Under the pieces are notes generated by a model. It was not told the DNA's origin, made no database searches, and was given only the letters and a program-made list of their open reading frames with translations. A program made the position numbers and the translations under genes. A stretch of DNA of 64,000 nt from Streptomyces sp. NBC_00271 (GTDB taxonomy: Bacteria; Actinomycetota; Actinomycetes; Streptomycetales; Streptomycetaceae), in the NCBI RefSeq assembly GCF_036178845.1, contig NZ_CP108070.1, forward strand, positions 7,688,001 to 7,752,000. Reading direction: 5' to 3'. Positions 12,283 through 49,690 of this stretch are shown in pieces. The first letter of the stretch is position 1; each line of letters starts with the position of its first letter.

Positions 12283-12325
12283 GTGCCCCCGGCAGGATTC
12301 GAACCTGCGCACACGGCTCCGGAGG
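12283..12325. other. Left attachment site (attL), 43-bp tRNA-derived core
   Basis: Identical over 43 bp to 49618-49660, the 3' half of the tRNA-Arg gene (T arm, acceptor 3' strand and part of the anticodon arm). The identity breaks at 12326. It marks the left edge of the intact element. Confidence 0.9.
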
Positions 12326-16891: not shown

Positions 16892-17926
16892 TCAGGCAGA
16901 AGGGCGACCCTCGCGCCCTCCCTCTGGCAGTGGGTAGCGGTATGCAGTGGCAACGAGCTCCTCCCGTGCTGGTGCCCACTCGTTCCAGATGCGCCAACGT
17001 CCCCCATGGCCCTGGAGGTCGTCACTGAGATCGATTTGGTCTATCACGACTAGGCAGGTGGGGACGCCTTCAGCGTGGCGAACCTCCCCTTCGGTCAGGT
17101 CGATCGCCTCGCGGGTGGTGGTGCTCCCCTTCACCTCTACATGGACCTCGGATCCGTTCTTGCGCGCGGTGATGTCCCACGGTGAGTGGTCACCTACGTC
17201 TTCAACCTCGTAGCCCTGTTCGCGGTAGTGACTGAGCACGAGATTCATCGCATACCGTTCGACGGCCTGCCGCCGCTCCGCATCGCGCTGCCGGCCGTAA
17301 CCGGTAGACCTTCGCGGCTTGGGCAGCGAAAGCGCTGGTAGGTCGGGGGCTTCTGGCTCGTGCGGCTCAGAGACGGCGGTCTGGCGCAGCTGCCGCAACT
17401 CGGGGAGCTCTTCCACTAGTGCCCGTGGGAGCTTGGTCAGGTAGCCCTGTGCAGCACGAACAGGCCGCGCGTCTGACAGTGCGAAGGGGAAGTAGATGGG
17501 GCTCCCGACTTCTTCTGTGAGATGATCCCGCAAGGCTCGGATTGTCGGCTCAATCTCACGGAGCCGAGCCTGAGTCACAGGGTGCTTCAACCTTCGGTAC
17601 CCGCCAAGAGGAGCTTCCCAAGCGGCCTCTGGACGGGACTCACCCCGCTTCCGACCATAGGTTCCCCGGCTCTGCCAGGTGATCGTGGATGCGAAGGCCT
17701 CAGCTCGAACGTGGGAGTACCCCACGATGCCTGGGCCATGGTTCTTGTCCCAGTGCAAAACGAGATCCCCGGGTCGCACCTCGCGTACGAGCGCATAGGA
17801 CCAGTACGGCTCACCCCGATCGTTCACTTTGGGTGCGAGCAAGTTGGTCCCGATGTCCTCGCGGTTCGTGATCTCCAGCCAGTAACGTTCGTTCGGGTCG
17901 TGTCCCCACCACTTGTTCACGGCCAT
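16892..17926 (-). CDS. EVE-domain / DUF3883 restriction-type nuclease
   Basis: A 344-aa two-domain protein. Residues 1-170 resemble an EVE (PUA-like) reader of modified bases: WWGHDPNERYWLEIT near the start, then VRPGDLVLHW and GIVGYS. A linker leads to a DUF3883-like PD-(D/E)XK domain at about 225-310 with the core SPWDITARKNGSEVHVEVKG (Asp, then Glu-x-Lys). EVE plus nuclease is a known modification-dependent (type IV) restriction design. The gene is monocistronic and convergent with its left neighbour. Target chemistry cannot be read from sequence. Confidence 0.78.
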   Translation of the reverse strand: MAVNKWWGHDPNERYWLEITNREDIGTNLLAPKVNDRGEPYWSYALVREVRPGDLVLHWDKNHGPGIVGYSHVRAEAFASTITWQSRGTYGRKRGESRPEAAWEAPLGGYRRLKHPVTQARLREIEPTIRALRDHLTEEVGSPIYFPFALSDARPVRAAQGYLTKLPRALVEELPELRQLRQTAVSEPHEPEAPDLPALSLPKPRRSTGYGRQRDAERRQAVERYAMNLVLSHYREQGYEVEDVGDHSPWDITARKNGSEVHVEVKGSTTTREAIDLTEGEVRHAEGVPTCLVVIDQIDLSDDLQGHGGRWRIWNEWAPAREELVATAYRYPLPEGGREGRPSA

Positions 17927-18332
17927 GATCCCCCCTGACTCTCGACGTCGGCCACTGCTGATCCTGTCAGGTCAGGTGGATCCAGTGGTTCGGAAGTGTG
18001 CCTCTCTTACAGCGATCGGCGGAGGAACCTCTTCGTCCCGAACGCGATCAGGCTCCGTCGCGGCAGCGGGCCGTGGCCCCGACCTGCTCGTGCGGTTCCA
18101 CGAAGTCCGTGACTGTCCGACACATCCCTGGGCTCGCTGCCGCGTTTGGCCCCCCTTGCTGCTGCTGGCTGGTGCATGGCGTTGCCAGCTCTGGGCTCTG
18201 GCCGGTCAACCGCGTCAGACTGGCGCCCGCGGTAGTTGCTCGGACTCCTGGAAGACGGAAACATGACTTTTACGCATACGTTTGTAGTAGCTTTTAGTGC
18301 ACTTGGGAGAGAGTGACCGGAGGGTGGGGCGC
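17927..18332. other. Divergent promoter region
   Basis: A 406-bp gap between the leftward EVE-nuclease gene and the rightward HEPN gene. The last ~45 bp before the HEPN gene (from about 18262) are strikingly AT-rich for this genome (GACTTTTACGCATACGTTTG), a likely promoter. No gene seen. Confidence 0.5.
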
Positions 18333-19673
18333 GTGTCTAAGCACGACGATGATTTCGAGTTCGAAACGCTTCTTTCCATCCACGCCGAGGAGGCGAAGGC
18401 GGAGAAGAGCGGTGCACCCCTAACGCCCGAGGAAATCGATAGCGTAAAAAAAATCGAGAATTTGGGCTACAGTCTTGCTGCCTCGAAATACGACTACTTG
18501 AAATTCAGGGACTCCGACGTAGATCGGAGGTTGGCACAGCGCCGCACATACCTCGTGACCCGGGACATGCTGAAGGAAGTTGCCGACACGCTGTCCAGCT
18601 ATCAGGATGTCAGCGCTCATAGAGCGATCGTTAAAAACGATGGCTCGTATGTTGAGTACGCGCTCGACTCACCGTCGTTTCTTCCGTTCGGCCACTTTGT
18701 GGAACGTGTGGAATGGGAGTATCGGCAAGCTGAATGCGGCCATAAATTTCGCCCCTGCACAATTCGGACGGGGGAAGAGGAGTACTCCCCTGGGTTCCAT
18801 TTGACCGCTCCGTCAGGGGGTGTCTGTTTGGAGCTTTCTGAAATTAGCCCCGTAGCTATTTTCAAGATATCCAACGGCGGGTTTGTCGGATCGGATATCG
18901 TTGACTATACGCTGAAGGTGATGGTCTCGTCGCCAAAGGATATCGTGTCAGGGCTGAGCCTTGCTCAGCAAGCAGCTGATAGCCTACTGTTTGAGCTCGA
19001 TGCAAAACATGGTGTGAATTTTCATCTCCTGCCCTGGGATAGGGCGCGCGTGTCTGCTACGAGAGTTCCCCGTAGGCCGCATGTCGCATTCCCATCCACC
19101 TCGGTGCCGCGGGAGGTGGCAGCCCTATTCGCTTTCGCTGCCGAAGCGAAGGATAATCCACTCTTCGCGTTTCTTTCCTACTATCAGGTGCTTGAATACT
19201 ATATGCCGTTGACATCAAGGCGGGATGCTCTTAGGCGGATTAGGCGAGAGGTCAGAGATTTCTCATTTGACATTTCTGATGACGCCTCGGTCTTGAGGGT
19301 CCTCAACGCGGTCGAAAGGACCAAGGGGTTGAGCGAAGAAGACACGCTTAAGATCCTGGTTCGTGATTGCGTACGCGAGGATATGCTCACGCAGTTCTTC
19401 CAGACGCCCCGTTACGGCGTGCATTTCTCGCGGAATGGGCCGATAGCCGGCGCCCCTGCCGTGAACTTGAAGGCGACAAACGAAACCATCGCGGTGCAAA
19501 CCGCGAAGCGTGTGTATGCATTGAGGAACAGAATTGTTCACGCCAAGGACGATCCCAAATATGCGGAAACGCCACAGCTTCTTCCGCGGAGCGTGGAAGC
19601 TAACGCCCTAAAGCCTGACATTGCACTTGCGCGGTTCCTGGCTCTGGAAACCGTTTCAGATGCGCAGGGCTGA
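18333..19673 (+). CDS. Large HEPN-motif protein of unknown function
   Basis: A 446-aa protein. The GTG at 18333 has GGAGGG about 9 bp upstream; an earlier GTG at 18297 lacks an RBS. The N-terminal ~250 residues show no family I recognise. The C-terminal third is helical and ends in TAKRVYALRNRIVHAKDD, where RNRIVH fits the HEPN R-x4-H RNase signature. A large sensor-like N-terminus with a C-terminal HEPN resembles ApeA-type defence proteins in outline only. Codon use is AT-rich compared with the core genome (an eight-A run near 18446), a sign of recent transfer. Confidence 0.65.
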   Translation: MSKHDDDFEFETLLSIHAEEAKAEKSGAPLTPEEIDSVKKIENLGYSLAASKYDYLKFRDSDVDRRLAQRRTYLVTRDMLKEVADTLSSYQDVSAHRAIVKNDGSYVEYALDSPSFLPFGHFVERVEWEYRQAECGHKFRPCTIRTGEEEYSPGFHLTAPSGGVCLELSEISPVAIFKISNGGFVGSDIVDYTLKVMVSSPKDIVSGLSLAQQAADSLLFELDAKHGVNFHLLPWDRARVSATRVPRRPHVAFPSTSVPREVAALFAFAAEAKDNPLFAFLSYYQVLEYYMPLTSRRDALRRIRREVRDFSFDISDDASVLRVLNAVERTKGLSEEDTLKILVRDCVREDMLTQFFQTPRYGVHFSRNGPIAGAPAVNLKATNETIAVQTAKRVYALRNRIVHAKDDPKYAETPQLLPRSVEANALKPDIALARFLALETVSDAQG

Positions 19674-19940: not shown

Positions 19941-21893
19941 CTAACGGCCGTTTGCCTTGCCGCCGAAGAGGCCGCCGCCCTGAGTCAGAATCCGCTGCTC
20001 TACGTTGACGAGGCCGAGCAGGGCTGCTGACAGAGCCTGAGGACTAAGCAGCTGACTGACGTCCTCCTTGCCGATGGCGACTGGCTCGCCCGACGCTGTT
20101 CGCGCGACGAGCGTGCCGTTCAGGTTCTGAGCGTGCACGACGTGGGCGACAGCCTCCTCGCCGTACACGCGCTGGACCAGGCCACGAACTTGGGCGGAAT
20201 CAGGCTTCGGCCAAACCTCGTTCGCCCAGTAGCTAAACTCCTGCTGGAACACGGGGTGATCAGTGTTGAGGTAAACGACCCCACGGTGCTCCTGGCCGTC
20301 AATCTCACGCGTCTCGTTCTGCACGTAGCGAGCGAGGTACTTCGCCTCTTCCATGTCGAAGGAGGCCCAGTCGAACGCCGGGTAGCCGCCACGCGTAGCG
20401 CTAGGAGCGCCAGTCAGGGTTCCGCCCCGCGCCGGCTGCAGCAACTGCCGCGTGGCGGAGGAGCCTCGGCCTGCGGAACCACTTCCTCCCGATCCGGTGG
20501 AAGACGTGCCCTCGCGGCGACTTGCGATGGCCGTTCCCGCCGGGATCCCGAGGATCCGCCCGGCGGCCGAGGTGGTGAGACGCGAGGCTTTGAAACGAGC
20601 GTTCAGCCGGTCCAGGATGCGCGAGATGTTCTTCCCCATCGAGGCGTCTGCACGTGCTCCGCTCTGGCTGCGGATGTCGTCCAGAACCTTCTTGAGAGGT
20701 TCTGGAAAGTCCGCGAAGAATCGATCACCCCACTCTTCCCAGGGAAGTTCGCCGCCTCCCTTGGTGATGAGGATGTGCCTGGAAGCCTGGGTGAGCACAC
20801 CCCACTGGGTCGGCCGACTGTCGCTGAACACGGGCGGACGCAGGATTACCCATGTACGGCCCTTGATCTCGTCCGTGATACCGAACTGCCGATACCGGTG
20901 CTTGGTGTGGTCTGCGTGGTATGCCTCACCCTGGTAGTCGACCACTACAACGGGCCGCTGGGCGACGTAGTCGTTGGTGCCCTTCACCGGGGCATCGGGC
21001 TCCGGAACGTAGAACCACTCGACGACGGTCCCGTGGTCATCAACCTGGACGGTACCCGTCAGGAGCGTGTCGGGAATGTAGTGCCGCAGGCCGTAAACAC
21101 GCCTGGGCCGCCACACCATCAGCGTTCCGTTAGGCAGTTCGACGGTCTTGTCCTTGGTGTCCCGACGGTCCGTCTCGCCCTTGCGGTAGAGATCGACGAC
21201 CGTCGTTTCCAGCGGCTTACCCTGCCGCTCGGGAACCTCGATGACGCGACCGTTGAGGTAGCGCACGAGGCCGTCCACGGTCTCGTGCCGGGCAGGTTCA
21301 GGATCTCCCTGCCAGGTGTCGCTCTCAGCCGAAGCGCCGAGTAGCACCATGATCGTCCCGGTCGTCATCCAGTCAGGACGGATCTCTCCCCAATGACAGC
21401 CGTGCTCGTCGTCCTCGTACGGAAGCATGACGTCGTCGCGGCCGAGGTACATTCCGTCCTCGTCCTGGACGTCCCACTCCTTGAACGTGTAGCTGTCGCC
21501 TTCGCGCTGGATCCAAACCATGGCGCCGTCGGGCGTTTGTTCGGTGTAGCTGATGACGACGACACCGTAGGGATTCCAGGGAAGCACCGAAGACTTGAAT
21601 CCCTGACCGAAGTTGCCATCGACGCCGATCGGCTTACCGCCGCCGCCGAAGGAAGACAGGAACACCAGAAGGTCGTCGGGAACCATTCCGGAGCCGTTGT
21701 CCATGATGGTGCGCCGAAGGACACCCTTATTGCGCGCGGCTTGTTCCTCGATCCCGAAATGGATGATGGAGGCGCCGCTCTCTTCCGAGTTGCGCCAAGC
21801 CTCTCGCGCCCACTGGTAAGGGCCGCCAGCTTCGTACGCCTGACGAATGAGGTTCTTTACCGCATCCGCCGGGACGTGGACTCGTCGAGCCAT
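19941..21893 (-). CDS. GHKL-fold ATP-binding protein
   Basis: A 650-aa protein. The ATG at 21893 has AAGGAG about 9 bp upstream. The frame runs open further upstream into an unrelated gene remnant and should not be joined to it. ATPase motifs are those of the Hsp90/MutL/histidine-kinase fold: DNGSGM (G1) and GGGGKPIG...GNFGQGFKSS (G2 lid), residues about 45-90. The rest has no catalytic domain I can name; a Ser/Gly linker near 500 separates a C-terminal helical domain. Similar GHKL proteins occur in actinophages and defence islands, where they may act like MORC or Hsp90 switches. Two palindromic repeats lie directly upstream. Confidence 0.75.
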   Translation of the reverse strand: MARRVHVPADAVKNLIRQAYEAGGPYQWAREAWRNSEESGASIIHFGIEEQAARNKGVLRRTIMDNGSGMVPDDLLVFLSSFGGGGKPIGVDGNFGQGFKSSVLPWNPYGVVVISYTEQTPDGAMVWIQREGDSYTFKEWDVQDEDGMYLGRDDVMLPYEDDEHGCHWGEIRPDWMTTGTIMVLLGASAESDTWQGDPEPARHETVDGLVRYLNGRVIEVPERQGKPLETTVVDLYRKGETDRRDTKDKTVELPNGTLMVWRPRRVYGLRHYIPDTLLTGTVQVDDHGTVVEWFYVPEPDAPVKGTNDYVAQRPVVVVDYQGEAYHADHTKHRYRQFGITDEIKGRTWVILRPPVFSDSRPTQWGVLTQASRHILITKGGGELPWEEWGDRFFADFPEPLKKVLDDIRSQSGARADASMGKNISRILDRLNARFKASRLTTSAAGRILGIPAGTAIASRREGTSSTGSGGSGSAGRGSSATRQLLQPARGGTLTGAPSATRGGYPAFDWASFDMEEAKYLARYVQNETREIDGQEHRGVVYLNTDHPVFQQEFSYWANEVWPKPDSAQVRGLVQRVYGEEAVAHVVHAQNLNGTLVARTASGEPVAIGKEDVSQLLSPQALSAALLGLVNVEQRILTQGGGLFGGKANGR

Positions 21894-21916
21894 ATTTGAT
21901 TTTCTCCTTGGGCTTC

Positions 21917-21961
21917 CTAGAGCAAGCGCCCTAGAAAATGCGCAAGAGCGAGCGCCCTTGC
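21917..21961 (-). promoter_or_regulatory. Two tandem palindromes upstream of GHKL gene
   Basis: CTAGAGCAAGCGCCCTAG (21917-21934) and GCAAGAGCGAGCGCCCTTGC (21942-21961) share AGAGCRAGCGCCCT, repeated 26 bp apart. Each core is itself a pseudo-palindrome with differing outer arms. They lie 24-68 bp before the start codon, as expected for a repressor operator. The regulator is unknown. Confidence 0.6.
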
Positions 21962-22179
21962 GAGGTCCACCATACTCCCCCACGTGACACGACACTTGAA
22001 GGTACTTCTGCCCTGATGGGTCCTCAAGTAGCAGTGCTGGAACGAGAGTGCCCGATTGAGACTCCACGCCACCCCGGCCCGCACAGAAGTTGGTGGCCAG
22101 TAGGCGGAGTGGCCAGTGTCGGACGTGTGTGTGGAGACTGCGCTGCGGTGGTTGGCGCGGTTGCCGGCCTACGCCAGGA

Positions 22180-22631
22180 ACCCGACGCACCTGCTTCAGG
22201 GCGAAGACAATGAGCCGGTCGGACACCTTCGCGAAGAAGCTCGAACCACTCAGGGCCTCGATGGCCGCCCGCACGCGCTCCGAGAGCAGCAGCCGGAGGC
22301 ACGAAAAACCGACCGGTCCCCGGGAACCAACCGCATCGGGGCCAAGAACTTCCGGGTCGACCCGTGCGGCCTGCTCCCACCAGGCCTCCAGTAGCTCGGC
22401 CTCCAGCCCCTCATCGACGTCCGTCTCGTCCCACGGCGGGATGTCCAGGGAGCGAGTCCCCTCCTCGAAGTAAAGGTTCCCGTAGAAGGCGCACGCCACG
22501 TCCTCCGGCTCCAGCCGCGGCCCGCCGGCCAGCCGCACACCGTCGCGGAGCGCCGGCCTCACATCCCGTCCCATCAACTCGGGCCCCAGAAACTCCTGCC
22601 CGATGCCATGAACGTTGACCACCCGCGCCAT
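22180..22631 (-). pseudogene. N-terminal remnant of a VHGIGQ-type hydrolase-like protein
   Basis: Starts at ATG 22631 with a plausible N-terminus (VVNVHGIGQEF) typical of uncharacterised alpha/beta-hydrolase-like proteins of actinomycetes, and continues coherently for about 150 residues to ALKQVRR. After that it turns into Arg/Pro-rich nonsense and reads, without a stop, into the start region of the GHKL gene. The nucleophile elbow and the rest of the hydrolase are missing, so I treat it as a truncated gene. Confidence 0.65.
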
Positions 22632-22860: not shown

Positions 22861-24609
22861 GTGGGAAGCCAGCTGCGTGTCGGTGAGGTGCTGCGGTCCG
22901 CTCAGAACAGGGACCCGGAGACACCGGTCATGGATGGGTACCGGAACATCCACCACGTCACGGCTTCCCAAGATCTCGCTCAGATCCAACTGAGCAAAGG
23001 GATCAACCCGATCGCCAAGGTCAAGGCGTCGGGCGCGCAACGTCGTCCGGCGATTCTGATCCGTTCCAGTCCGTGGAAGGCGGGGACGGCGGAGACTCCC
23101 TGGCATGACGTGTTCGACCTGGACTACGGCCACATCAGCTACTTCGGGGACCACAGGGTCGACCACACGGTCCCGGTGGGAAGCACCCAGGGCAATGCGG
23201 TGCTGCTTGAGGCCTTCACGGAGCACGAAGCCTCCACCGCGGCACAGCGGGCCCTGGCCGTGCCGCTGCTGGTGTTCGCGGCGGTCTCTCGCAACAAGAC
23301 GCCCAAGGGGTACGTCGAGTTCTGCGGCGTCGCGGTCATCGAGCGCGTCGAGCAGATTGAGCAGGAGGCGAAGGGAAGGCCCTTCCCCAACTACCGTTAC
23401 GACTTGGCCGTCTTGGACCTGAGCGCAGAAAGCGATCGGGTCGACTGGGCCTGGATCGAAGCCCGAGGCAACGCCAGGCTCCCGGCCGGCGATGTGCTCG
23501 AGCACGCTCCACGCTCTTGGCGCCAGTGGGTTGAGCACGGTCATTCAGTGCTGCCCGAGGTGCGACGGCGGACTCCAATTCCCGAGGGAGGCAACACCTC
23601 TCGCCCGTACTCGACCGGGGACAGCCGCCAGTCCCCAGGGCTGTTCCCCGCGCCTCGCCAGCCGGACGACACGGCCTCAGCGTCCCCTGGACCGGCTGAA
23701 CCGTTGGGGCAGCTGACCGCGAGCATGCTGGTGGACAGGCTCGGGAGCCTCAAGGTCCACCAGCACAACGGCCGGCCGAGTAGGCACAAGCCACTGGCCT
23801 TGCTCTGGTCTATCTCCAGGATCGCCGCCGGACAGGCCCGACTTGCGCCTTGGCGACAATTCCAGGACGAGGTGGGCGGGCTGCTGGCCGAGTTCGGCCT
23901 TCCCGAGTCCTCGGTCACCCCTGAGTACCCGTTCTTGCATCTGCAGACGAGTCGCCTGTGGGACGTCCACGGCCTTCCGCCCGAGCAGTCGGCCAAGCCC
24001 CATGCCGCGACACTCGACAAGTTGAACCCCGAGGCCGGCATGAACGAGCAGGCGGCGCGCCTGCTGAGCGATCCGTTCGTGCGGATTCAAGCGGTCGCTG
24101 TCCTACGGGAGACCTACCTGGCCGACGTTGACCACCATGCGCTGATGGACCGGCTGGGGCTGGCCGGCTACGAAACCGCCGGCAGCATCCCTGACGATGT
24201 AGAGGACCAGGACACGGGATCAGGCACTGCCTCACGGCGCACGGCCACCCTCTCTCGCATCGTCCGCGACCCCGAGTTGACGGCCGAGGTGAAGAGGCTG
24301 CACGGCGACCGCTGCCAGGTCTGCGGCTTGCAGCTGGCGACCCGATTCAGCACCTACAGCGAGGCCGCCCACATCCGCGGCCTCGGCCGCCCCCACCACG
24401 GCCCGGACAAACTGTCGAACCTGCTCGTCCTGTGCCCGAACCATCACGTCCAGTTCGACACACTCGCGATCTACATCACCACTGACGGCACAGTGCGCGC
24501 GACCGCAGACGACAGCCTTGTAGGAGAGCTCCGCCGGCACCCCGCCCACCCGATCAACGAAGCGCACCTCCGCTACCACCGCGCGCTGTGCGGCAGAGAT
24601 CACGACTGA
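22861..24609 (+). CDS. Type IV restriction enzyme: AspBHI-like, SBD and HNH domains
   Basis: A 582-aa protein; the GTG at 22861 follows GGGGGAGG. Residues about 25-215 match the N-terminal B3/SRA-like reader of AspBHI-type enzymes (RRPAILIRSSPWKAGTAETP, YGHISYFGD, VFAAVSRNK). Residues about 285-440 look like the sulfur-binding domain (SBD) of ScoMcrA-type enzymes (HKPLALLWSISRI, EYPFLHL). The C-terminus is an HNH nuclease (CQVCGLQ, AAHIRG, NLLVLCPNHHVQFD). The known ScoMcrA couples SBD, SRA and HNH and cuts phosphorothioated or methylated DNA. This protein should similarly cut invading modified DNA. No dnd genes are present in the window, as self-protection would require. Confidence 0.83.
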   Translation: MGSQLRVGEVLRSAQNRDPETPVMDGYRNIHHVTASQDLAQIQLSKGINPIAKVKASGAQRRPAILIRSSPWKAGTAETPWHDVFDLDYGHISYFGDHRVDHTVPVGSTQGNAVLLEAFTEHEASTAAQRALAVPLLVFAAVSRNKTPKGYVEFCGVAVIERVEQIEQEAKGRPFPNYRYDLAVLDLSAESDRVDWAWIEARGNARLPAGDVLEHAPRSWRQWVEHGHSVLPEVRRRTPIPEGGNTSRPYSTGDSRQSPGLFPAPRQPDDTASASPGPAEPLGQLTASMLVDRLGSLKVHQHNGRPSRHKPLALLWSISRIAAGQARLAPWRQFQDEVGGLLAEFGLPESSVTPEYPFLHLQTSRLWDVHGLPPEQSAKPHAATLDKLNPEAGMNEQAARLLSDPFVRIQAVAVLRETYLADVDHHALMDRLGLAGYETAGSIPDDVEDQDTGSGTASRRTATLSRIVRDPELTAEVKRLHGDRCQVCGLQLATRFSTYSEAAHIRGLGRPHHGPDKLSNLLVLCPNHHVQFDTLAIYITTDGTVRATADDSLVGELRRHPAHPINEAHLRYHRALCGRDHD

Positions 24610-24848
24610 CCGCGCTGGCGCGAGGCTGTGGCGCTCGCTCTCATTGGGGACTGGCTCGACGATCTCAGCGGACGGCGGATCTCTGAGGAGTCGATCGTGG
24701 CACTGCTCCTGCACGGCTACGGTTGCCCTTGGTCATCGCTGGCCCACCCGGACGGCCCGCGCGGGCGCGCGGTGGCGTACTCCTCGTTCGGGGGCGAGGT
24801 GGCCGAAGCGTCTTGATCCGGGCTACCGAGGTCGGGGAACCTGGCCAT

Positions 24849-25418
24849 ATGGAAGAAAGCAGTCCAGAGAATGACCAGTCCCGGTCGCTTGCAGAAGCCC
24901 TCGGGCGAGTTGTGCAGAACGCTGCCGCTCTTGAATCCCACCTGAGAACGCTGGCGGCGGCTCTGATCGGTTCGAAGTATGCCGCAATCGTTGTTGCAGG
25001 TCAGCCGACGTCCAGCCTGTTGGAGACAATCAGCGCTCTCAGCAAAGTCCATGATCAAGTTTCACCCGAGAAGCGTGCCGAGTTGGCGGAGCTGCTATCG
25101 AGAGCCAAGGTGGCACATAAGCGACGAAATGACTTCGCTCACGGCACATGGGCCGTAGATCCGGGCGGGGCGGTCATGTCTCACAACAGTCGCTATCGCC
25201 AGTTTGATTGGGTCAAGTCCCCCGTCAGCCATGCCGCTCTGACTGAGCTTTCGAAAGAGCTGATGGATTGCACAGTTCAGCTTCTCGTGTGGTCCTTTGC
25301 GACCCTCCCTGGAGACATCAGCAATGAGGCCCAGCTCAGGTGGGAGACGTACCTGAGCTCCCTCACTCCGGAGGAGCGTGAGGCCATGATCCAGAGGCGA
25401 ACCAGGGGAGCGGAGTAG
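24849..25418 (+). CDS. HEPN-motif protein
   Basis: A 189-aa all-helical protein starting at ATG 24849. The pattern AHKRRNDFAHGTW contains RNDFAH, an R-x4-H HEPN signature in the usual position between two long helices. No second domain, signal or membrane segment. It sits alone on the plus strand after the restriction gene, 240 bp downstream of its stop. It could be a toxin-type RNase or a nucleotidyltransferase-associated antitoxin partner; no MNT gene is adjacent. Confidence 0.65.
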   Translation: MEESSPENDQSRSLAEALGRVVQNAAALESHLRTLAAALIGSKYAAIVVAGQPTSSLLETISALSKVHDQVSPEKRAELAELLSRAKVAHKRRNDFAHGTWAVDPGGAVMSHNSRYRQFDWVKSPVSHAALTELSKELMDCTVQLLVWSFATLPGDISNEAQLRWETYLSSLTPEEREAMIQRRTRGAE

Positions 25419-25964: not shown

Positions 25965-26030
25965 CGGTTTTCACCAGGTCCGCTGGGTCACCCCGCGGAC
26001 CTGTGTCGTCTCGTTGCTCGTACGCGCCTC
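25965..26030 (-). pseudogene. NUDIX gene remnant
   Basis: About 65 bp resemble 30580-30640 within the intact NUDIX gene (shared CAGGTCCGCTGGGT-like and TTGCTCGTACGC-like blocks). Reversed, it reads RTSNETTQVRGVT against RTSSESKEVRWVN in the intact protein. Frame is lost on both sides. It suggests an earlier AICE core ended near here. Confidence 0.55.
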
Positions 26031-26279
26031 GCGCCGACCAGCCATGAGCGGAAGCTCCCATCGTTGCATTGTCGCGACAAGCCGCCCAGGGTGAGAGAGC
26101 GGTCTCCGCGGAGGAATTTCTGAGGGTTCGGCCAGATCGCGGTACTCCATGTGGAGTGTGGGGGGCGTGGGGGGGATGCATGAGTTCATGAGAAGGAGCC
26201 ATAGTCCCGCGCCGTGCCCACCGTGCTCAGTGTCCGCATTGTGGATTGGGCCCATCGGAGCACCCGGCTGGAGGCATGC

Positions 26280-28019
26280 ATGCTAGCCAAGGAACGTCCT
26301 GCGCCCCCGGTGATGTTGGTAATGCATGAAGACGCTCCTTTGCGGCAACGGATTACCGAGTCAATCCGAGACTGGTGCGACGGCGGCATCGAGGCAATCG
26401 GGGTGATGAACTTCGCAGAGCTGGAAAAGACGCTAATTGATGAGATCCTGAAAAAGGATCGAGGAGAAGCCTATATGCGTTTGGTTGCCGTCATCGCACG
26501 ATACGGTAACGTCCAACAAAAGATTGATGACTTCCTCAAGGAATGGTACCCGGCGGCGAGCCTGGCAGAATTGCCGGCAGATAGCAAGTTCAAGTCGACC
26601 CCGAAAAAGAGGGAGAATATTTTCGTCGCCGAGTCAGACGCATGGGAATTCCAGCAAAACGTCGAGACGCTGTTTCACGACTGGAGCCCGCCCGACAGTG
26701 AGGTTACCTTCACCGGAAAGGAGGGCTGTCGGGCGGCGTACATGCAGAAATGGCTCTTCCAGCACGGAATTCCTTACAAATGGGAAACCGGCAATCCACC
26801 AGGTAAACCTGGAATCACAGCGGAGATCGATAAGATTCGCTATCCGGCCACACTAGGTCAACTCTTTGAGCGCCTGATCGTCAGAGACTTTCACTACAAA
26901 CTCAAGCATAGATACGATCTGGTCATTGTGGGTGCCGGTCCGGCGGGCCTTTCTGCTGCGTTGAGTGCGGGTATTGCTGGCCTGAGCACACTCGTCATCG
27001 AGAGTCAGCGGCCTGGCGGAAATGCGGCGATGTCTATCAACCGAATCGAGAACTATCTCGGCTTTCCTGGTGGCGTCACTGGCACCAGGCTAGCCAAGCT
27101 GGCGGTCGAGCAGTTGGAGGATGTCACGACTGTCGATCTACGCCCCACGCTTGAAGCGAAGGGAATCAAAGAGGAAGGTTCCCGGTACCGCATCACGGTA
27201 AGCGGCACCAAGGAAGTAAAGTGCGTGTCTGCTGGGATGATTCTCATCGCGTGCGGGCAAGTATACAATCAGCTCACCAAAGTGCTAGCCGACGGAACGA
27301 AAACGGTGCTTGAGGCTCCAGTCGGCTTGGACGTCAGGTACGTCGTGGAGAAGCACCACGTGACCGACGCGAATGACAAGGACATTGTCATCGTAGGCGG
27401 CGGCCTCACAGCCGGACGTGCCGCCCTTCACTATCGTATGGCTGGGTGCCAATCGCTACGATTGGTAACCGACAGGAACCTCATGTCCGGGCCGCTCAAC
27501 GCCGAGCTCCGCATGAAAGGAATCACCCCGGAAATTATCGAGGAAGTGGTCGATATCGTCGACCGGAAGGGGAAAGCAGAAGTTGTAGTGCGACCTCCGG
27601 GAGGAGCGGCAAACAGCCCGCTTCTCGCTCACCGTGTGCACGTACTGATCGGCGGTACACCCAACACGAATTGGCTGAACAATACCGTGGAGATGGACGG
27701 TAAGTTCATCAAAACCGATAGACACGTTGCGAGTCCCGTTTGCGTGGGTGAGCCCTCTCGTATCCTGCCGTTTTGTACCAGCCGTCCAGGAATCTTCGCT
27801 GCCGGGGACGTACGAGTCCTAGCACGCCGGCGGGTGGGACAGGCTGTGGGGCAGGGCGTGGCGGCGGTGGCGGCGATGGAGGAATATCTGGACCATAAAG
27901 GCTCGAACGGTGTCTATACCTGGGAAAATGTCCTGGACGACGGGACCAGCCACTGGCGCACCTGGCGCCTGGCGGTGAAGGCGGTGGAAGACAGATCGTC
28001 TGGCGCCGGTTCCGGCTGA
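26280..28019 (+). CDS. Thioredoxin-reductase-like flavoprotein with N-terminal sensor region
   Basis: A 579-aa protein; the ATG at 26280 follows GGAGG, while a GTG 66 bp earlier has no RBS. Residues about 1-200 resemble the receiver-like and glutaredoxin-like front of fused response-regulator/thioredoxin reductases (VMLVMHEDAPLRQRI, KWLFQHGIPYKWETG). Residues 215-560 form the two-dinucleotide fold: FAD site VIVGAGPAGLSAA and NAD(P)H site VIVGGGLTAGRAA, ending GIFAAGDVR. The redox CxxC of true thioredoxin reductases is not visible between the two sites, so disulfide reduction is doubtful. AT-rich codon use suggests transfer. It lies 153 bp before a HEPN/nuclease pair. Confidence 0.72.
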   Translation: MLAKERPAPPVMLVMHEDAPLRQRITESIRDWCDGGIEAIGVMNFAELEKTLIDEILKKDRGEAYMRLVAVIARYGNVQQKIDDFLKEWYPAASLAELPADSKFKSTPKKRENIFVAESDAWEFQQNVETLFHDWSPPDSEVTFTGKEGCRAAYMQKWLFQHGIPYKWETGNPPGKPGITAEIDKIRYPATLGQLFERLIVRDFHYKLKHRYDLVIVGAGPAGLSAALSAGIAGLSTLVIESQRPGGNAAMSINRIENYLGFPGGVTGTRLAKLAVEQLEDVTTVDLRPTLEAKGIKEEGSRYRITVSGTKEVKCVSAGMILIACGQVYNQLTKVLADGTKTVLEAPVGLDVRYVVEKHHVTDANDKDIVIVGGGLTAGRAALHYRMAGCQSLRLVTDRNLMSGPLNAELRMKGITPEIIEEVVDIVDRKGKAEVVVRPPGGAANSPLLAHRVHVLIGGTPNTNWLNNTVEMDGKFIKTDRHVASPVCVGEPSRILPFCTSRPGIFAAGDVRVLARRRVGQAVGQGVAAVAAMEEYLDHKGSNGVYTWENVLDDGTSHWRTWRLAVKAVEDRSSGAGSG

Positions 28020-28172
28020 ACGTACGGACTCTGACGCACCCGCCCTGGAAGTGGACCACGTCAACGACGTCGTGCGGGGATCCTGAGGGCGAAGCTGTCG
28101 GCACGTTCGCCTCCTCTCGACAGCGGTAGTTCGTACCTGTGTTGGCGGAAGGCGGGCGCGTATGCTCAACGG

Positions 28173-28763
28173 GTGACCTCTCAAGCCCTGGCCGACTGGA
28201 GCGCCAAGCGTGCATTGCGTATCGACCTCGCTTGGCAGATGCACTCGGGGCAGGTGGCGTCCACCACGGCAGGGTGGCAAGTCGATCAGGCATTGGCAGT
28301 CGTTCTCCAGCGGATAGCGACCGAATTTCAAGGCTTCTGTCGCGCACTGCACGACGAAGCGAGCGAGTTCTTCGCAATGACCGTAGCTAATGGGAATCCG
28401 CAACTCGAAAGCACGCTGCGTCAGATGCTCACTAAGGGCCGAGACGTTGACAAAGGGAACGCGCACAACGAAGCAATTGCACGCGATTTCGCACGGTTCG
28501 GATTCATCTTTTGGCCTGCTATGACGGCGGCGGATAGTCGCGCCGGGGGTTGGGCCAATGAAATCAGGAAACTTACCGAGATGCGCAATGGCGTGGCGCA
28601 TGACGACACGGCGAAGATGGGCAAATTGGCGGGTGAAGGCTACCTTCTAAATGATCCCACCCTGAAATCGTGGCAGACCACTTTAGATGATGTAGCCACC
28701 GTGATGGATGACGTGGTTGGCCTATCCCTCGGGACTCTGTTGGGGGTTTCGCGGCCATGGTGA
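28173..28763 (+). CDS. HEPN-motif protein overlapping a nuclease gene
   Basis: A 196-aa helical protein. The GTG at 28173 has no RBS, but a TATGCT lies about 7 bp upstream, which would fit a leaderless transcript. Near residue 140, LTEMRNGVAHDD shows RNGVAH, an R-x4-H HEPN signature. Its stop overlaps the next start (ATGGTGA), so the two are translationally coupled and probably work together. The family is not recognised beyond HEPN. The role could be effector RNase, with the partner nuclease sensing DNA, or the reverse. Confidence 0.65.
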   Translation: MTSQALADWSAKRALRIDLAWQMHSGQVASTTAGWQVDQALAVVLQRIATEFQGFCRALHDEASEFFAMTVANGNPQLESTLRQMLTKGRDVDKGNAHNEAIARDFARFGFIFWPAMTAADSRAGGWANEIRKLTEMRNGVAHDDTAKMGKLAGEGYLLNDPTLKSWQTTLDDVATVMDDVVGLSLGTLLGVSRPW

Positions 28764-29425
28764 GGGATGAAATGACTAGTCGTGAGTATCAGGTCGGCGA
28801 TGCGATCACGGTGCCGTGGGGGCTTGACCTCGTCCAAGGAACTGTTGTAGGGGCGTATGGTGAGGGGCTCGGTCTCCGAGTTCTGGTCGAAGTGGACTTG
28901 GGGGACGGAAGCACTGAAGTCCTGCCATTTCCTCCTCGCGCTCTTGAGATTGCTCAGCAGCCAGAAGGGCAAAGCCCGCCGGGGGCTTGGGTTCAGGCGT
29001 CACGGTATGAAGAGAGTTTGTCTCGCGTATTGAGTAAAATCCTGCATGCACATGTCCCTGAGTGGCTTGGTGGCGTTGAGGTGAATGCGCGACTCGGAGA
29101 GGCCCGCGAGATTGATTTCCTCGCTCAGTTGCCGGATCGCTTGCTTTTGGTCGAGGCCAAGCATTATCGAGATGTGCAGCGACCACTTAATACCTCCACG
29201 CTTGATCAAGTGGAGGCGTACCTGCGAGGGCTTCGACGAAACAGCCCGCCTGCGGTCGCTTTGGTTGTGACCAACGCAAAGGTGCCTCTATCTGTAATAG
29301 AGCGTGCGGAAAAGTACCGTGAAGCCAGTGTTCCCATGTGGGTGGCTGGATGGCGTGAGTGGGATACTCCCGTAGAACTAGAGATGGCTCTTGCGGAAGC
29401 TCTTCGTTTCCCTGTATCGGGATAA
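28757..29425 (+). CDS. PD-(D/E)XK restriction-endonuclease-like protein
   Basis: A 222-aa protein starting at ATG 28757 inside the end of the HEPN gene. Residues about 10-70 form a small beta-rich domain (GDAITVPWGL, VVGAYGEGLG) that might be a nucleic-acid or protein reader. Residues 85-200 hold the nuclease core: REIDFLAQ supplies the Asp and LLLVEAKHY the Glu-x-Lys, as in Mrr-like and other restriction folds. The gene ends the group; a GntR gene follows after 50 bp. Coupling with a HEPN protein is the notable feature. Confidence 0.7.
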   Translation: MVRDEMTSREYQVGDAITVPWGLDLVQGTVVGAYGEGLGLRVLVEVDLGDGSTEVLPFPPRALEIAQQPEGQSPPGAWVQASRYEESLSRVLSKILHAHVPEWLGGVEVNARLGEAREIDFLAQLPDRLLLVEAKHYRDVQRPLNTSTLDQVEAYLRGLRRNSPPAVALVVTNAKVPLSVIERAEKYREASVPMWVAGWREWDTPVELEMALAEALRFPVSG

Positions 29426-29477
29426 GGGGCCTCTCTCCGTGAGATGAACTCTGAATGTAAGAAGGGAAATAAATAAC

Positions 29478-29924
29478 GTGCCGCAGGCCAGTCCGCGGGG
29501 TACGTACTTGCAGGTCTCTGAGTCTCTGCGCCAGAAGATCGAGTCGGGGGACATCGTCGATGCCTTGCCGTCAGAGGCCACTCTGATGAGTGCTCACGGG
29601 GTCTCCCGCAACACGGTGCGCCGTGCCCTCAAGGTGCTGGAAGCCGACGGCGTTGTTGCATCGGCTCCAGGTATCGGCTGGCGCATTGTCCGGGACGGTG
29701 ACCGACGCTCGCTTGCAGAGAGGATGACGGATCTGGTCACTGAGGATTCACTCTCAGTGGGCGACGCTTACCCATCCGAAGCGAAGCTGTGTGAGCGATT
29801 CGGAGCTTCCCGGACTGCCGTGCGCCGTGTCCTTGCCCAGATGGAGGGAAACGGCCTACTTGCCACGGTTCACGGCAAGGGGCGAACCGTACGCGCTCTC
29901 CCGACTCCTACCGTCCGGCCGTAG
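29478..29924 (+). CDS. GntR-family regulator with two winged-helix units (KorSA-like)
   Basis: A 148-aa protein from GTG 29478 (AAGGG about 11 bp upstream). Two GntR-type DNA-binding units lie in tandem, residues about 8-70 (PSEATLMSAHGVSRNTVRRAL) and 78-140 (PSEAKLCERFGASRTAVRRVL), with no separate effector domain. pSAM2-type AICEs keep excision and transfer silent with the GntR repressor KorSA, and this gene stands at the same boundary between cargo and core. It probably represses the core promoters here; its operator is not established. Confidence 0.8.
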   Translation: MPQASPRGTYLQVSESLRQKIESGDIVDALPSEATLMSAHGVSRNTVRRALKVLEADGVVASAPGIGWRIVRDGDRRSLAERMTDLVTEDSLSVGDAYPSEAKLCERFGASRTAVRRVLAQMEGNGLLATVHGKGRTVRALPTPTVRP

Positions 29925-29935
29925 CCTTGGCCCCT

Positions 29936-30505
29936 ATGGGACTGACTGAGTGGGCGTACTCGCTCTCCGAATCGCTGCTGTCCGATCCGCTCCCGCGTCG
30001 GTGGGCGCACTCGTTGGGGGTCGCCAAGCGCGCTCGCTCCTTGAGTCCCATCATGGGCGATGACGCCGAGTTGCTGGAAGCTGCCGCGGTGCTGCATGAC
30101 ATCGGGTACTCGCCAGCGATCGCGACCACCGGGTTTCACCCGCTGGACGGCGCGCGGTTCCTCCGAGACCAGGAAAAGGTAGACGAACGGGTCGTTCGTC
30201 TCGTGGCTCACCACTCTTGCGCCCTGGTGGAAGCTGAGGAGCGCGGGCTGAGGCAGGAGCTTGAGGGGGAGTTCGAGCTTGAGCAGCCGGACCTGGTCGA
30301 CGCTCTGCTGTACTGCGACATGACGACGACGCCCGACGGGACGCAGACTACATCGGCTGAGCGGCTGGACGAGATCGTGCACCGGTACGGTCCGGACACG
30401 ATCGTCGGGCGGTTCATTCAGCGCGCGGCCCCCGAGATCCATGCAGCGGCGAAGCGTGTTGAGGGCCGCTTGGCGGAGGTCTCAGCTGGCGATCAGCCGA
30501 TGTAG
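29936..30505 (+). CDS. HD-domain phosphohydrolase
   Basis: A 189-aa protein starting at ATG 29936, 11 bp after the GntR stop. The HD motif is clear (RRWAHSLGVAKRA, AAVLHDIGYSP, LVAHHSCA). Such metal-dependent phosphohydrolases act on nucleotides or related phosphates. HD proteins recur in AICE cores beside regulators, but their substrate is unknown. Its 3' end overlaps that of the convergent NUDIX gene by 13 bp, so mutual transcript interference is possible. Confidence 0.8.
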   Translation: MGLTEWAYSLSESLLSDPLPRRWAHSLGVAKRARSLSPIMGDDAELLEAAAVLHDIGYSPAIATTGFHPLDGARFLRDQEKVDERVVRLVAHHSCALVEAEERGLRQELEGEFELEQPDLVDALLYCDMTTTPDGTQTTSAERLDEIVHRYGPDTIVGRFIQRAAPEIHAAAKRVEGRLAEVSAGDQPM

Positions 30506-30966
30506 GGCTCTCGCCGCGAGTCGTCGAGACCGTGGCGGATGCGCAGCATCATCGACGGGTGGATGTCCAGTCCGTCAAGGTCCGCTGGGTTAACCCAGCG
30601 GACCTCTTTTGACTCGCTGCTCGTACGCAAGGAACCCCCGATGGGGTGGGCTCGAAAGCAGATGGAGAACTGTTGCCGGACCTCTCCGTCGTCATACGCC
30701 AGCACGTGTTCAGGGTCGGTGTAGAGCCCCACGATGTTGTCTACCTCAACGTCAATGCCGGTCTCTTCCGCGACCTCACGGACGACGGTGTCACTGATGC
30801 GCTCGCCGATGTCATGGCCGCCGCCCGGCAGCGCCCACAGATCGTTGTCCGTCTTGTGGATGAGCAGCAACCGCCCCTCGTCGTCTCGGACGACCGCAGT
30901 GACCGAGGGCACCACCGAGTTGGCCCGAGGGGCGTTCGGGTTGCGGAAGTAGTCGATACGGCTCAT
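30493..30966 (-). CDS. NUDIX hydrolase (Pif-like)
   Basis: A 157-aa protein. The ATG at 30966 shares its A with the stop of the upstream XRE gene (TGATG), giving translational coupling. The Nudix box is complete (GHDIGERISDTVVREVAEE, then TG). In pSAM2 the Nudix protein Pif prevents redundant transfer between donor cells; the same position next to the regulators suggests a similar immunity role. It may otherwise hydrolyse a nucleoside diphosphate derivative. A partial copy lies at 25965-26030. Confidence 0.82.
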   Translation of the reverse strand: MSRIDYFRNPNAPRANSVVPSVTAVVRDDEGRLLLIHKTDNDLWALPGGGHDIGERISDTVVREVAEETGIDVEVDNIVGLYTDPEHVLAYDDGEVRQQFSICFRAHPIGGSLRTSSESKEVRWVNPADLDGLDIHPSMMLRIRHGLDDSRREPYIG

Positions 30967-31733
30967 CAGGCAGTGCCTTCCCAATCGGCAGGTGAAGAGA
31001 TCGGGCGGGCGGATTGCCAGACCTTCTCAACGCTCTCAACGTAGGCGTCGAAGAGCTCGCCGCCGGGCACGCGTCGCAGGTGCAGAACGGGGGCCATGTA
31101 GGCGCCGACGCCGTAGAGGTGCCCGTTCGCCAGCATCTCGTCGTCGGCTCGGTAGATCGAGTTGTAGAGGGTCGTACCGTGCAACCGAAACTCCACCCCG
31201 GGGAGGCCGAAGAGCGGGCCGTAATTGATGAGGGCGTTCCGGATCTTGCCTGCCATCGCCGCGCCGATCCCTTCGTCCTCGCCGCGCACCGCCACGGCCG
31301 ACGACGTGGGCTCTCCCAGGATGAAGCGGATGGGCACTCCGTCGGCTGACTTCTCTTTCACGATGCGGTGGAACGACGCGTCCTCCGTGAGCCAGAACCC
31401 GGAGTACACCAACAGGTCAAACTGACGGGTCGCTTTGGAGTAGAGGTTCGTCCAGAGGGTTTGCATCACGACGGACCGGTGCGGATAGAGCCTGACCAAC
31501 TCGGCATTGCCGGCGGCTGCGACCTCAGCTGATGTGCGTTCGTCCGGCCACAGGTACGACACTTCGCACTTCAACAGCGAGGCCGTTGCGAACTGAAAGC
31601 GGCGATATGGCTTGCGCTCAGGTTCGTTGATCCATCGTTCGACCGTCTTGGCTGCGACCCCGAGTCGTTCGGCGACCTCGTCGAGCGTCAGGCCCAAGTC
31701 CACTATCGCGCCGCGCAGTCGCTCGTTCGCCAC
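30966..31733 (-). CDS. XRE-type regulator with phospholipase-D-like C-terminus
   Basis: A 255-aa protein. The GTG at 31733 has GGAGG 6 bp upstream; the frame extends far upstream but without coding character. Residues 1-60 form a helix-turn-helix (LTLDEVAERLGVAAKTVERW). The remainder resembles the domain found in many Streptomyces AICE regulators, with the core FRLHGTTLYNSIYRADDEML, a degenerate phospholipase-D-like fold lacking the full HxKxxxxD. It forms an operon with the NUDIX gene and faces the transfer operon across an 890-bp control region. It is likely an activator or repressor of that operon. Confidence 0.78.
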   Translation of the reverse strand: MANERLRGAIVDLGLTLDEVAERLGVAAKTVERWINEPERKPYRRFQFATASLLKCEVSYLWPDERTSAEVAAAGNAELVRLYPHRSVVMQTLWTNLYSKATRQFDLLVYSGFWLTEDASFHRIVKEKSADGVPIRFILGEPTSSAVAVRGEDEGIGAAMAGKIRNALINYGPLFGLPGVEFRLHGTTLYNSIYRADDEMLANGHLYGVGAYMAPVLHLRRVPGGELFDAYVESVEKVWQSARPISSPADWEGTA

Positions 31734-31921
31734 TCCAACCTCCGGCTTTCTGGGACGACTTGGTTCGACTTCACGGTAGCCAAGAACGACCCGAGCCGTA
31801 CATCCGCGAAGTCGATCGTCGTAGGCGTCCGCGCCAGTCTGTAGGTACATCGAGCGCGAGGGGCTCGCAGAACTCCAAACAGCCGAAGGGCTTGACGAGG
31901 CGCACTCCCCTCCGCAAGATG

Positions 31922-31944
31922 AGGAACACGTAATACATGTTCCT
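31922..31944. promoter_or_regulatory. Palindrome AGGAACA-N9-TGTTCCT
   Basis: Perfect 7-bp arms around an AT-rich 9-bp centre (CGTAATACA), about 190 bp upstream of the XRE start. A candidate operator for the GntR or XRE protein, or part of the transfer origin. Confidence 0.55.
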
Positions 31945-32560
31945 GATGCAGTGTCCGGATGGCAAGGCCCGGATTTTGCGCTGCGAAGAACTGAACAGTG
32001 ATCGTGCGGGGCTGACGCGAGTCGGCGGTCGCGGGAGGTGCCTAGGGCGAGGGTCCGGGGGCAAACCGCCGTGATGAACGTCGTCTCTCCCCTACGCGCC
32101 TGGCAGGCGCCACCCGGTGTTCGGGTGTGGAGAAGTACAGCGGGGCCCCAACGCACGTGGCGGCAAGAGTGAGACCGCCCCCGCGGCGACCGGGTGATGT
32201 CGTCGGCGGCACGCCGCTCTGCACCGATTCGTGCAGGCCGCCCTGCTGGCGTCAGAGCAGTGACGATGACGCACCCGATGTTCCCGGCTCGGGACCGGTG
32301 CTCCGTGGCAACCGCGCACCGGTGAAGCCGTATCCCTGCTCTCTGCGGGAGGTCGGTGTGAACCGACGGCATACCCAGGCGCCGCCGTGATGGACCGGCC
32401 GGCGGCGCCTGAACTACTTCCCGGTCTGCATCTTGCTGGCCTCGCAGCGGATCGCGCTGCGGCCGGTTGCCTCCCTCGCCCGTCCGGTTCCGCGTACTGC
32501 GCGGCGCCGTACGGGCGGGGTTGCAGGGAGCCGGATTCCCCTGGTTCTACAACGGCGCGC

Positions 32561-32594
32561 GGCCCCGGTGCTCGAACACCGGGGCCGCTGTTTT
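32561..32594 (+). terminator. Hairpin with T run before the first transfer gene
   Basis: GGCCCCGGTG, loop CTCGAA, CACCGGGGCC, then GCTGTTTT. This is a complete rho-independent terminator 32 bp before the start of the first gene of the operon, so it may attenuate entry into the transfer operon. Confidence 0.75.
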
Positions 32595-32625
32595 GGGCCG
32601 TTCCCATCTGAGAGGAGTACGTCCC

Positions 32626-32937
32626 ATGAGGTACATCGTTGCTGGTCATGAGGCTGTTACCGCGGCGGAGTTCGCGGAGTTGGCGTTCGGTATCGACCTG
32701 GAGCTGTTCACCGGTCCGGTTGTGGAGTCCGCGAATGAGCGGACGGCGCGGTTGGACGTGGCCCGCGAAGTCCTCGTGGAGCTCCGTGAGTCGGACCCGG
32801 AGGCCGCGGCGTACGCCGAATCGCTGCTGCGTACGAGCCCGTTGAAGGACGCGCGGGCCGCCGGTCGCCGACCCCGTCGGACGTCGGCACGCCGTCCGGT
32901 GCGGCGCTCCGCGGTGCGTACGGCGGTGGCGGCGTGA
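32626..32937 (+). CDS. Small AICE protein, first of transfer operon
   Basis: A 103-aa protein; the ATG at 32626 has GAGGAG 9 bp upstream. An acidic helical N-terminal part (AEFAELAFGIDLELFTG, ESDPEAAAYAESLL) is followed by a strongly basic tail (RRPRRTSARRPVRRSAVR) that could bind DNA. No family known to me. Its stop overlaps the next GTG (GTGA). Confidence 0.65.
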   Translation: MRYIVAGHEAVTAAEFAELAFGIDLELFTGPVVESANERTARLDVAREVLVELRESDPEAAAYAESLLRTSPLKDARAAGRRPRRTSARRPVRRSAVRTAVAA

Positions 32938-33266
32938 GTGACGGGCTGACGCTGGACGAACTGGCCGTGCCGCTGCGCGCACTGCGCCTGCTGACCACGG
33001 ACTTCGGGCACCTGCCGGCGCCGTCGGTGCACGTCTCCACCATCTACCCGGAGCGGCTGGAGCTGACTTTCTACGACGACCTGTCCGGCTTCGAGTTGTG
33101 GCGCGAGGCACTGGGGATCGCCCCGGACGCCGTGACCTACGGCGAGCAGAACGCCAGCCGTACGCGCGTCCTTCAGGTGACGGTCGACTATGCGGGCACG
33201 GCGGTACACCTGACCGGCTACGCCGACGTCGCCGTCCCGGTGTCGGTGGAAGCGGGCGCGGCGTGA
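32934..33266 (+). CDS. Small AICE protein
   Basis: A 110-aa acidic protein from GTG 32934, overlapping the genes on both sides by 4 bp. It looks alpha/beta (VHVSTIYPERLELTFYDD, VTVDYAGTAVHLTGYAD). No motif identified. The coupling implies it is made in step with the DUF2637 protein that follows. Confidence 0.65.
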   Translation: MSDGLTLDELAVPLRALRLLTTDFGHLPAPSVHVSTIYPERLELTFYDDLSGFELWREALGIAPDAVTYGEQNASRTRVLQVTVDYAGTAVHLTGYADVAVPVSVEAGAA

Positions 33267-47838: not shown

Positions 47839-48030
47839 GTGGCCAAGCCGCGTGACGAAATGCTCACCATTTCGCAGGTGATCGAGGAGATACGGATTCC
47901 ACGGGCGACCTTCTACCAGTGGCGCGCGTGCAAGAAAGGTCCGAAGTCCATCAAACTCCCGAACGGTTCCGTACGGATTCGCCGTTCGGAACTTGACCGT
48001 TGGTTGACCTCGTTGGAGGAAGCCGCGTGA
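47839..48030 (+). CDS. xis: Excisionase (Xis), MerR/AlpA-type helix-turn-helix
   Basis: A 63-aa protein; the GTG at 47839 has AGGAGAG upstream. A single winged helix-turn-helix (LTISQVIEEIRIPRATFYQW, SVRIRRSELDRWL) fits AICE recombination directionality factors. It overlaps int by 4 bp (GTGA), so the two are made together. Its role is to bias the integrase towards excision. Confidence 0.87.
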   Translation: MAKPRDEMLTISQVIEEIRIPRATFYQWRACKKGPKSIKLPNGSVRIRRSELDRWLTSLEEAA

Positions 48031-49617: not shown

Positions 49618-49660
49618 GTGCCCCCGGCAGGATTCGAACCTGCGCACACGGCTCCGGAGG
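49618..49660. other. Right attachment site (attR) inside tRNA-Arg
   Basis: The 43 bp identical to 12283-12325, covering the 3' half of the tRNA gene. The intact tRNA on this side shows that integration restores the gene. Confidence 0.9.
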
Positions 49661-49690
49661 CCGTTGCTCTATCCCCTGAGCTACGGGGGC
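49619..49690 (-). tRNA. tRNA-Arg (anticodon CCG)
   Basis: 72 nt without encoded CCA. Acceptor GCCCCCG pairs with CGGGGGC plus discriminator A. Anticodon stem ACGGC/GCCGT encloses the loop CTCCGGA, anticodon CCG, reading CGG. T arm has GTTCGAATC. The gene is intact and serves as the AICE integration site. Confidence 0.95.

Follow-up and report, generated by a model that had tools for sequence, protein, structure and literature searches.

HEPN domains are an established theme in toxin–antitoxin, abortive infection and restriction-modification (R-M)-linked systems, according to the available part of a broad survey (Anantharaman et al. 2013, PMC3710099). That survey describes HEPN ribonucleases (RNases) that are fused to, or share operons with, DNases of the restriction endonuclease (REase) fold, McrB/C and R-M genes. 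Here we describe a HEPN gene and an overlapping partner gene in a 64,000-nucleotide stretch of the 12.3-Mb Streptomyces sp. NBC_00271 genome (G000:C1:7688001-7752000; hereafter the window), where they form part of the cargo of an integrated element. The partner opens with a small Tudor/KOW-like barrel and, in the window, continues into a PD-(D/E)XK nuclease domain. The reading we favor, with somewhat better than even confidence, is a two-gene, translationally coupled module in which a Tudor-like controller, sometimes armed with a DNase, governs a HEPN RNase that serves as a toxin–antitoxin or abortive-infection effector.

Each of the closest described systems matches part of this arrangement. 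HEPN-MNT (HepT-MntA, type VII) is likewise a two-gene unit with a small HEPN toxin-like protein, and the predicted fold of our protein is nearest to HepT, but the partner here is a Tudor/KOW-like barrel with no nucleotidyltransferase match. The HEPN families of PMC3710099 go by other names, and the main text of that survey, as far as available, describes no separate overlapping barrel partner gene. BREX-related Hma systems include a standalone HEPN as an auxiliary effector (PMC12839542, available part), and two of our loci lie downstream of HmaC- or HmaB/HmaC-type genes; in those systems, however, the Tudor domain is within the helicase, whereas here it is within the HEPN partner, and we saw Hma genes at only these 2 HEPN loci. 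Can2/Card1/Cdn1 and McrC nucleases share the PD-(D/E)XK core, but no CARF part was found here, a Tudor-like barrel being fused instead. Among the proteins scanned, neither HEPN nor partner scored above the cut-off of any PADLOC, NCBIfam or Pfam family, one tail's match to Mrr_cat excepted. The literature searched, including the available parts of PMC3710099, PMC12839542 and PMC10853773, yielded no description of a HEPN gene overlapping a Tudor/KOW-barrel gene. HEPN effectors linked to REase-fold nucleases are already known; their pairing with an overlapping, variable-tailed barrel gene appears to be new.

HEPN genes were collected at 28 distinct places: the window, L035, 17 loci of a species-genome collection, L062, L063, L064, L065/L067, L066, L068-L070 and L074. 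We excluded four broken ones: L060, which has lost its 3' end, and the truncated L064 have no barrel, the reading frame of L065 is broken with the barrel present, and L066 is a fragment with a barrel fragment in another frame. At each of the other 24, all actinobacterial and readable in the motif region and 3' end of HEPN, a barrel gene lies directly downstream of the HEPN gene. Because the loci were found with HEPN, the conservation of the partner is an independent observation. The junction is a 7-nt overlap in 14 of the 24, an overlap of 4 nt in two and of 10 nt in one, and a gap of 5-34 nt in seven; our script favored whichever start came closest to a 7-nt overlap, and analyses taking the first start gave the same 14. 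The earlier note on this DNA had placed three open reading frames (ORFs), for a flavoprotein, a HEPN protein and a nuclease, in this order with the last two overlapping at ATGGTGA; we find the same layout, with all three on the plus strand.

The RNxxxH motif is intact at every one of the 24 readable HEPN loci, and R138, N139 and H143 are invariant in 35 aligned rows. The best VIA rows for the HEPN structure model are HepT and HEPN structures. On the analogy of HEPN toxins, the HEPN protein is probably an endoRNase that acts via RNxxxH. The Pfam model PF18735 (HEPN_RiboL-PSP) was matched by three of four relatives below its cut-off of 28.4 bits (best 18.2), the window protein itself gave no match to it, and a sequence search of solved structures with the HEPN profile found none.

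The barrel is the constant part of the partner. All 24 partners open with a barrel of the G-D-x-V-x-V-(W/F)-G type, clear in 23 and weak in L062 (the pattern was loose and rows were judged by eye), and the short partners are homologous to the N-terminal barrel of the long ones (hhalign probability 98%, E 6.7e-14). What follows the barrel varies: in 15 partners nothing (64-95 aa in total), in five an intact PD-(D/E)XK domain (the window, L035, L045, L058, L074), in two a nuclease-like tail that has lost its catalytic residues (L047, L048) and in two another tail (L051, L070). The L070 partner (L070:6579-7391, on a Mycobacteroides plasmid) joins the barrel to a different tail of ~200 residues, which suggests another instance of tail swapping. 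The earlier note had described a HEPN–nuclease pair; the pairing of the genes is conserved, but the nuclease is optional.

In 11 aligned nuclease-bearing partners, the D, E and K of the active site are conserved, in the D...ExK arrangement of PD-(D/E)XK enzymes. The nuclease model resembles Can2, Cdn1 and McrC, the nearest families are McrC, Can2 and Mrr, and one nuclease tail matches the Pfam family Mrr_cat above its cut-off. One relative, P0026, adds a C-terminal PF23359 domain to barrel and nuclease. We take this to be an Lsr2-type DNA-binding domain, and the domain set suggests an aim at AT-rich foreign DNA. On the HEPN tree, in which several inner branches are weak, two changes are required for the nuclease form; one fully supported clade comprises four Streptomycetaceae rows, and L058, from Blastococcus, stands apart.

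Searched separately, the HEPN and the nuclease protein each turned up in two of 199 genus genomes, and these were the same two, with the genes adjacent in both. DNA homology between the window and genome G189 (28156-29425, 78.6% identity) begins 17 bp upstream of the HEPN gene and ends at the partner stop codon; it resumes over the element genes from 29871 to 33239, and a separate 83-bp match joins window 25975-26055 to L035 4512-4594, in another part of L035's element. In a comparison of the window with G189, a single strain pair analyzed with our own script, the ratio of nonsynonymous to synonymous substitution rates (dN/dS) was 0.10 for HEPN and 0.16 for the partner (barrel 0.13, nuclease 0.17), with dS of 0.8-1.0. 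Selection on both genes is purifying.

HEPN relatives are sparse, numbering 18 proteins in a set of 5.8 billion and 17 loci in the species-genome collection. They occur in 6 of 396 genomes of the phylum (the window's own included, and three as fragments or broken genes) and in 4 of 392 of the genus, counts that are lower bounds because the profile searches scored 8 candidates per genome. Nuclease-bearing partners have eight relatives, including the window's own protein. Three plasmid records contain the HEPN gene, and the nuclease protein had no relative among plasmids. The L068 record (NZ_LN868939.1), filed as a 2.66-Mb Nocardia farcinica plasmid, has two annotated features and, by eye, chromosome-like neighbors around the HEPN pair; it is probably a piece of chromosome.

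The five intact nuclease forms either belong to integrative elements or have Hma, MZA-like, Cas3 or NACHT genes nearby. Upstream of L058 are HmaC, MzaB, MzaD and MzaC-like genes, L074 has HmaB and HmaC as neighbors, and L045 adjoins Cas3-HD and NACHT genes. Elsewhere, L061 has McrB-like and McrC genes directly upstream of its HEPN-barrel pair, and L053 has a YhcG/DUF1016 neighbor. By our own after-the-fact classing, all five nuclease-bearing forms have a defense or mobile setting, compared with 4 of the 15 short ones (Fisher p 0.008). This contrast left out the four loci with degenerate or other tails and classed the UvrD-like helicase neighbors of L056 and L057 as ordinary; it would be weaker with those two counted as defense.

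These observations can be drawn into a tentative mechanism. The gene overlap would couple translation of HEPN and partner. The barrel, as the only part always kept, most likely binds the HEPN protein and restrains or aims it, as an antitoxin or a sensor. A trigger, such as the entry of phage DNA or the loss of the element, might then change the partner's hold, the HEPN protein would cut RNA, and growth arrest or abortive infection could follow; an intact nuclease tail would cut DNA as well. In mobile elements, the pair may act in toxin–antitoxin fashion, as an effector of abortive infection or as a backup effector that accompanies R-M-like systems. The latter role has been described for other HEPN proteins (PMC3710099 and PMC12839542, available parts).

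A number of results weigh against this interpretation. The VIA values of the HEPN model are close to those of unrelated helical bundles, and a Foldseek search with it gave no match at E<=0.001. In PADLOC 2.0.0, no model matches HEPN, and the partner matches only CARF8, weakly (E 0.024). Three of the loci are imperfect: the L062 barrel is doubtful, the L063 HEPN lacks its start because the locus ends there, and the L059 HEPN has a divergent C-terminus. No relative appeared in pattern-limited scans of viral contigs or, with the L061 HEPN as the only query, in phages. Nine short-partner loci (L049, L050, L052, L054, L055, L059, L062, L063, L068) lie among chromosomal genes that look ordinary by eye from their ORFs, and L055/L059 and L050/L052 share neighbors as if vertically inherited, unlike a typical defense gene.

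One competing account is plain addiction, in which a HEPN toxin and a barrel antitoxin serve to retain the element, with no direct anti-phage role and an incidental nuclease tail. Two small overlapping genes, a HEPN model closest to HepT toxins and carriage on integrative elements and plasmids all speak for it. Addiction has no need of a DNase domain, however, yet the 11 aligned nuclease-bearing partners retain D, E and K (though L047 and L048 have lost them), and it leaves the placement after Hma/MZA-like and McrBC genes unexplained. A toxin gene ahead of its antitoxin gene is also the less usual order, which we count against this account. We consider it doubtful. Proximity to McrBC, together with nuclease domains nearest to McrC, Can2 and Mrr, would instead fit a Type IV-like restriction complex, in which the barrel would recognize DNA or a protein bound to it, with the PD-(D/E)XK domain as main effector and HEPN as a structural or backup subunit. 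At L061 the HEPN-barrel pair directly follows the McrB-like and McrC genes, and BREX-related helicases have been described as containing Tudor domains (PMC12839542, available part). Yet the nuclease is absent from 15 of the 24 partners and has lost catalytic residues in two more, whereas all 24 loci retain RNxxxH; we consider such a complex unlikely. The nine ordinary-looking short loci and the barrel's weak similarity to KOW, CarD and NusG domains would also suit a housekeeping or regulatory role in RNA processing, the short form being an RNase of the chromosome whose KOW/Tudor partner binds RNA or polymerase, with recruitment by mobile elements only secondary. Its very patchy presence (the 6/396 and 4/392 genomes) and the mobile or defense-like contexts of the nuclease forms make this very improbable.

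The earlier note had proposed a possible three-gene cassette, in which the upstream flavoprotein would be a redox or signaling sensor for HEPN and nuclease effectors. The three genes are indeed adjacent, run in the same direction and have similarly low GC at third codon positions (GC3). The flavoprotein is a Pyr_redox_2 protein (Pfam 1.9e-21) that scores 104 bits against the TIGR01292 cut-off of 343, and it resembles thioredoxin reductase (TrxR) without a visible CxxC, as had been noted; the receiver-like front also ascribed to it has no Pfam receiver match. We rejected the idea that it is an unusual CxxC-less TrxR. The motif is missing from the window protein and from 13 of 13 relatives read in the correct frame (29 loci tried; six, including the nearest, L002, gave no row, and 10 of the 23 rows were wrong-frame and dropped), so its absence is ordinary among the 13 relatives checked.

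The flavoprotein's distribution also separates it from the pair. Among the 8000 candidates scored, at least 31 relatives reached E<=1e-60, most of them carrying the name NAD(P)/FAD-dependent oxidoreductase. All 199 genus genomes searched have generic TrxR-type matches (E<=0.001), but close relatives (E<=1e-50) were found in only 3 of 392 (G000, G097, G194); a second search of 392 genus genomes found HEPN in G000, G189, G619 and G673, and G000 alone has both. The relatives have other settings: in G194 (L036) a NUDIX gene adjoins, in what appears by eye to be the cargo of another integrative element; in G097 (L037) the neighbors are a GMC oxidoreductase and a xylose-isomerase-like TIM barrel gene; and L077 lies among metabolic genes of a Streptomyces plasmid. 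By tblastn (E<=1e-5), the flavoprotein is absent from all of 24 HEPN loci, a set that differs from the 24 above in omitting the window and including L060, and neither HEPN nor nuclease is encoded at any of 10 loci of flavoprotein relatives (G194, G097, the plasmid and seven more distant); because the loci span only 2-19.5 kb, linkage over longer distances may have escaped this check. This co-occurrence check had been set beforehand as the refutation of the cassette. A gap of 153 bp separates the flavoprotein stop from the HEPN start, and the homology to G189 begins inside it, at 28156, downstream of the flavoprotein. With these results and the negative co-occurrence, we reject the cassette as almost certainly wrong and conclude that the flavoprotein is an unrelated neighbor.

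Returning to the HEPN–barrel module, its barrel weakly resembles not only KOW domains but also CarD/Mfd-type polymerase-binding domains. On that basis, the module might dock the HEPN RNase on transcribing RNA polymerase or the nascent transcript, with nuclease forms cutting both RNA and template DNA at sites of foreign transcription. We consider this a rather remote prospect. If true, the module would be an immune effector against RNA and DNA that is coupled to transcription and can exchange its second tail: none, an active or dead nuclease, other domains, or a nuclease plus PF23359. More generally, the pair offers a compact, testable HEPN and Tudor-barrel family spread across actinobacteria, whose short, nuclease-armed and nuclease-dead natural variants could show how defense or toxin–antitoxin modules combine effectors that cut RNA with those that cut DNA.

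Features of the HEPN–partner locus and its integrative element (window coordinates)
Feature	Position	Strand	Remarks
Left copy of perfect 43-bp direct repeat (att-like)	12283..12325		
Flavoprotein, TrxR-like without CxxC	26280..28019	+	ATG 26280 (alternative GTG 26214); neighbor, outside the module
HEPN protein, 196 aa, predicted RNase (toxin/effector)	28173..28763	+	GTG start; RNGVAH = residues 138-143
Partner protein, 222 aa, Tudor/KOW/SH3-like barrel and PD-(D/E)XK domain (Mrr/McrC/Can2-like)	28757..29425	+	ATG start
7-nt overlap, ATGGTGA: HEPN stop / partner start	28757..28763	+	Predicted start codons
Barrel domain, partner residues ~7-70	28775..28966	+	Part common to short and long partners
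PD-(D/E)XK nuclease domain, partner residues 76-222	28982..29422	+	D120, E133, K135
Right copy of 43-bp repeat	49618..49660		In 3' part of tRNA-Arg(ccg) gene (49618-49690)

The location of the three genes in integrative-element cargo, also proposed in the earlier note, is borne out. The integrated element of ~37.4 kb that holds them is bounded by the perfect repeat, with one copy starting at 12283 and the other, within tRNA-Arg, at 49618, as in att repeats of an actinomycete integrative and conjugative element (AICE). ORFs at 48000, 47812, 46040 and 38297 are positioned like integrase, Xis, Rep and FtsK-like transfer genes. In a Pfam scan of the ORFs at 48000, 46040 and 38297, the Rep- and Tra-like ORFs had no match, and the integrase-like ORF had only a sub-threshold helix-turn-helix. 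An AT-rich codon use shared by the three genes had been remarked on as well. GC3 is low in all of them (flavoprotein 0.65, HEPN 0.65, nuclease protein 0.53), but much other cargo likewise has less GC than the flanks; GC is 67% for the whole window and ~70% outside the cargo. A scan of 27900-29500 found no sigma-70-like promoter and two terminator-like sites, both on the minus strand and near chance level.

Other cargo genes lie upstream of the flavoprotein. An 896-aa protein at 19941-22631 (-) looks GHKL-ATPase-like by eye but matched nothing in Pfam or PADLOC within the limits applied, and a 458-aa protein at 18297-19673 (+) has a partial match to PADLOC DzbB (5.5e-10) and a sub-threshold one to MauJ. 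At 16892-17926 (-), an EVE domain (25.0 bits, cut-off 23) is fused to a NO VEIN C-terminal domain, which also matches the C-terminus of the PADLOC HmaA model (1.7e-7). The 582-aa product of 22861-24609 (+) combines an AspBHI-type N-terminal domain (PF18062, 2.5e-32) with an HNH part that resembles phosphorothioate-DNA restriction enzymes (NF045808, 98 bits, below the cut-off of 180); it is likely a modification-dependent restriction hybrid. Finally, 24723-25418 (+) encodes a small protein with the motif RNDFAH (RNxxxH). No Pfam model names it or its relative at L035:12171-12647, to which it aligns with 30% identity over 124 aa, so the elements of the window and L035 both carry a related second protein.

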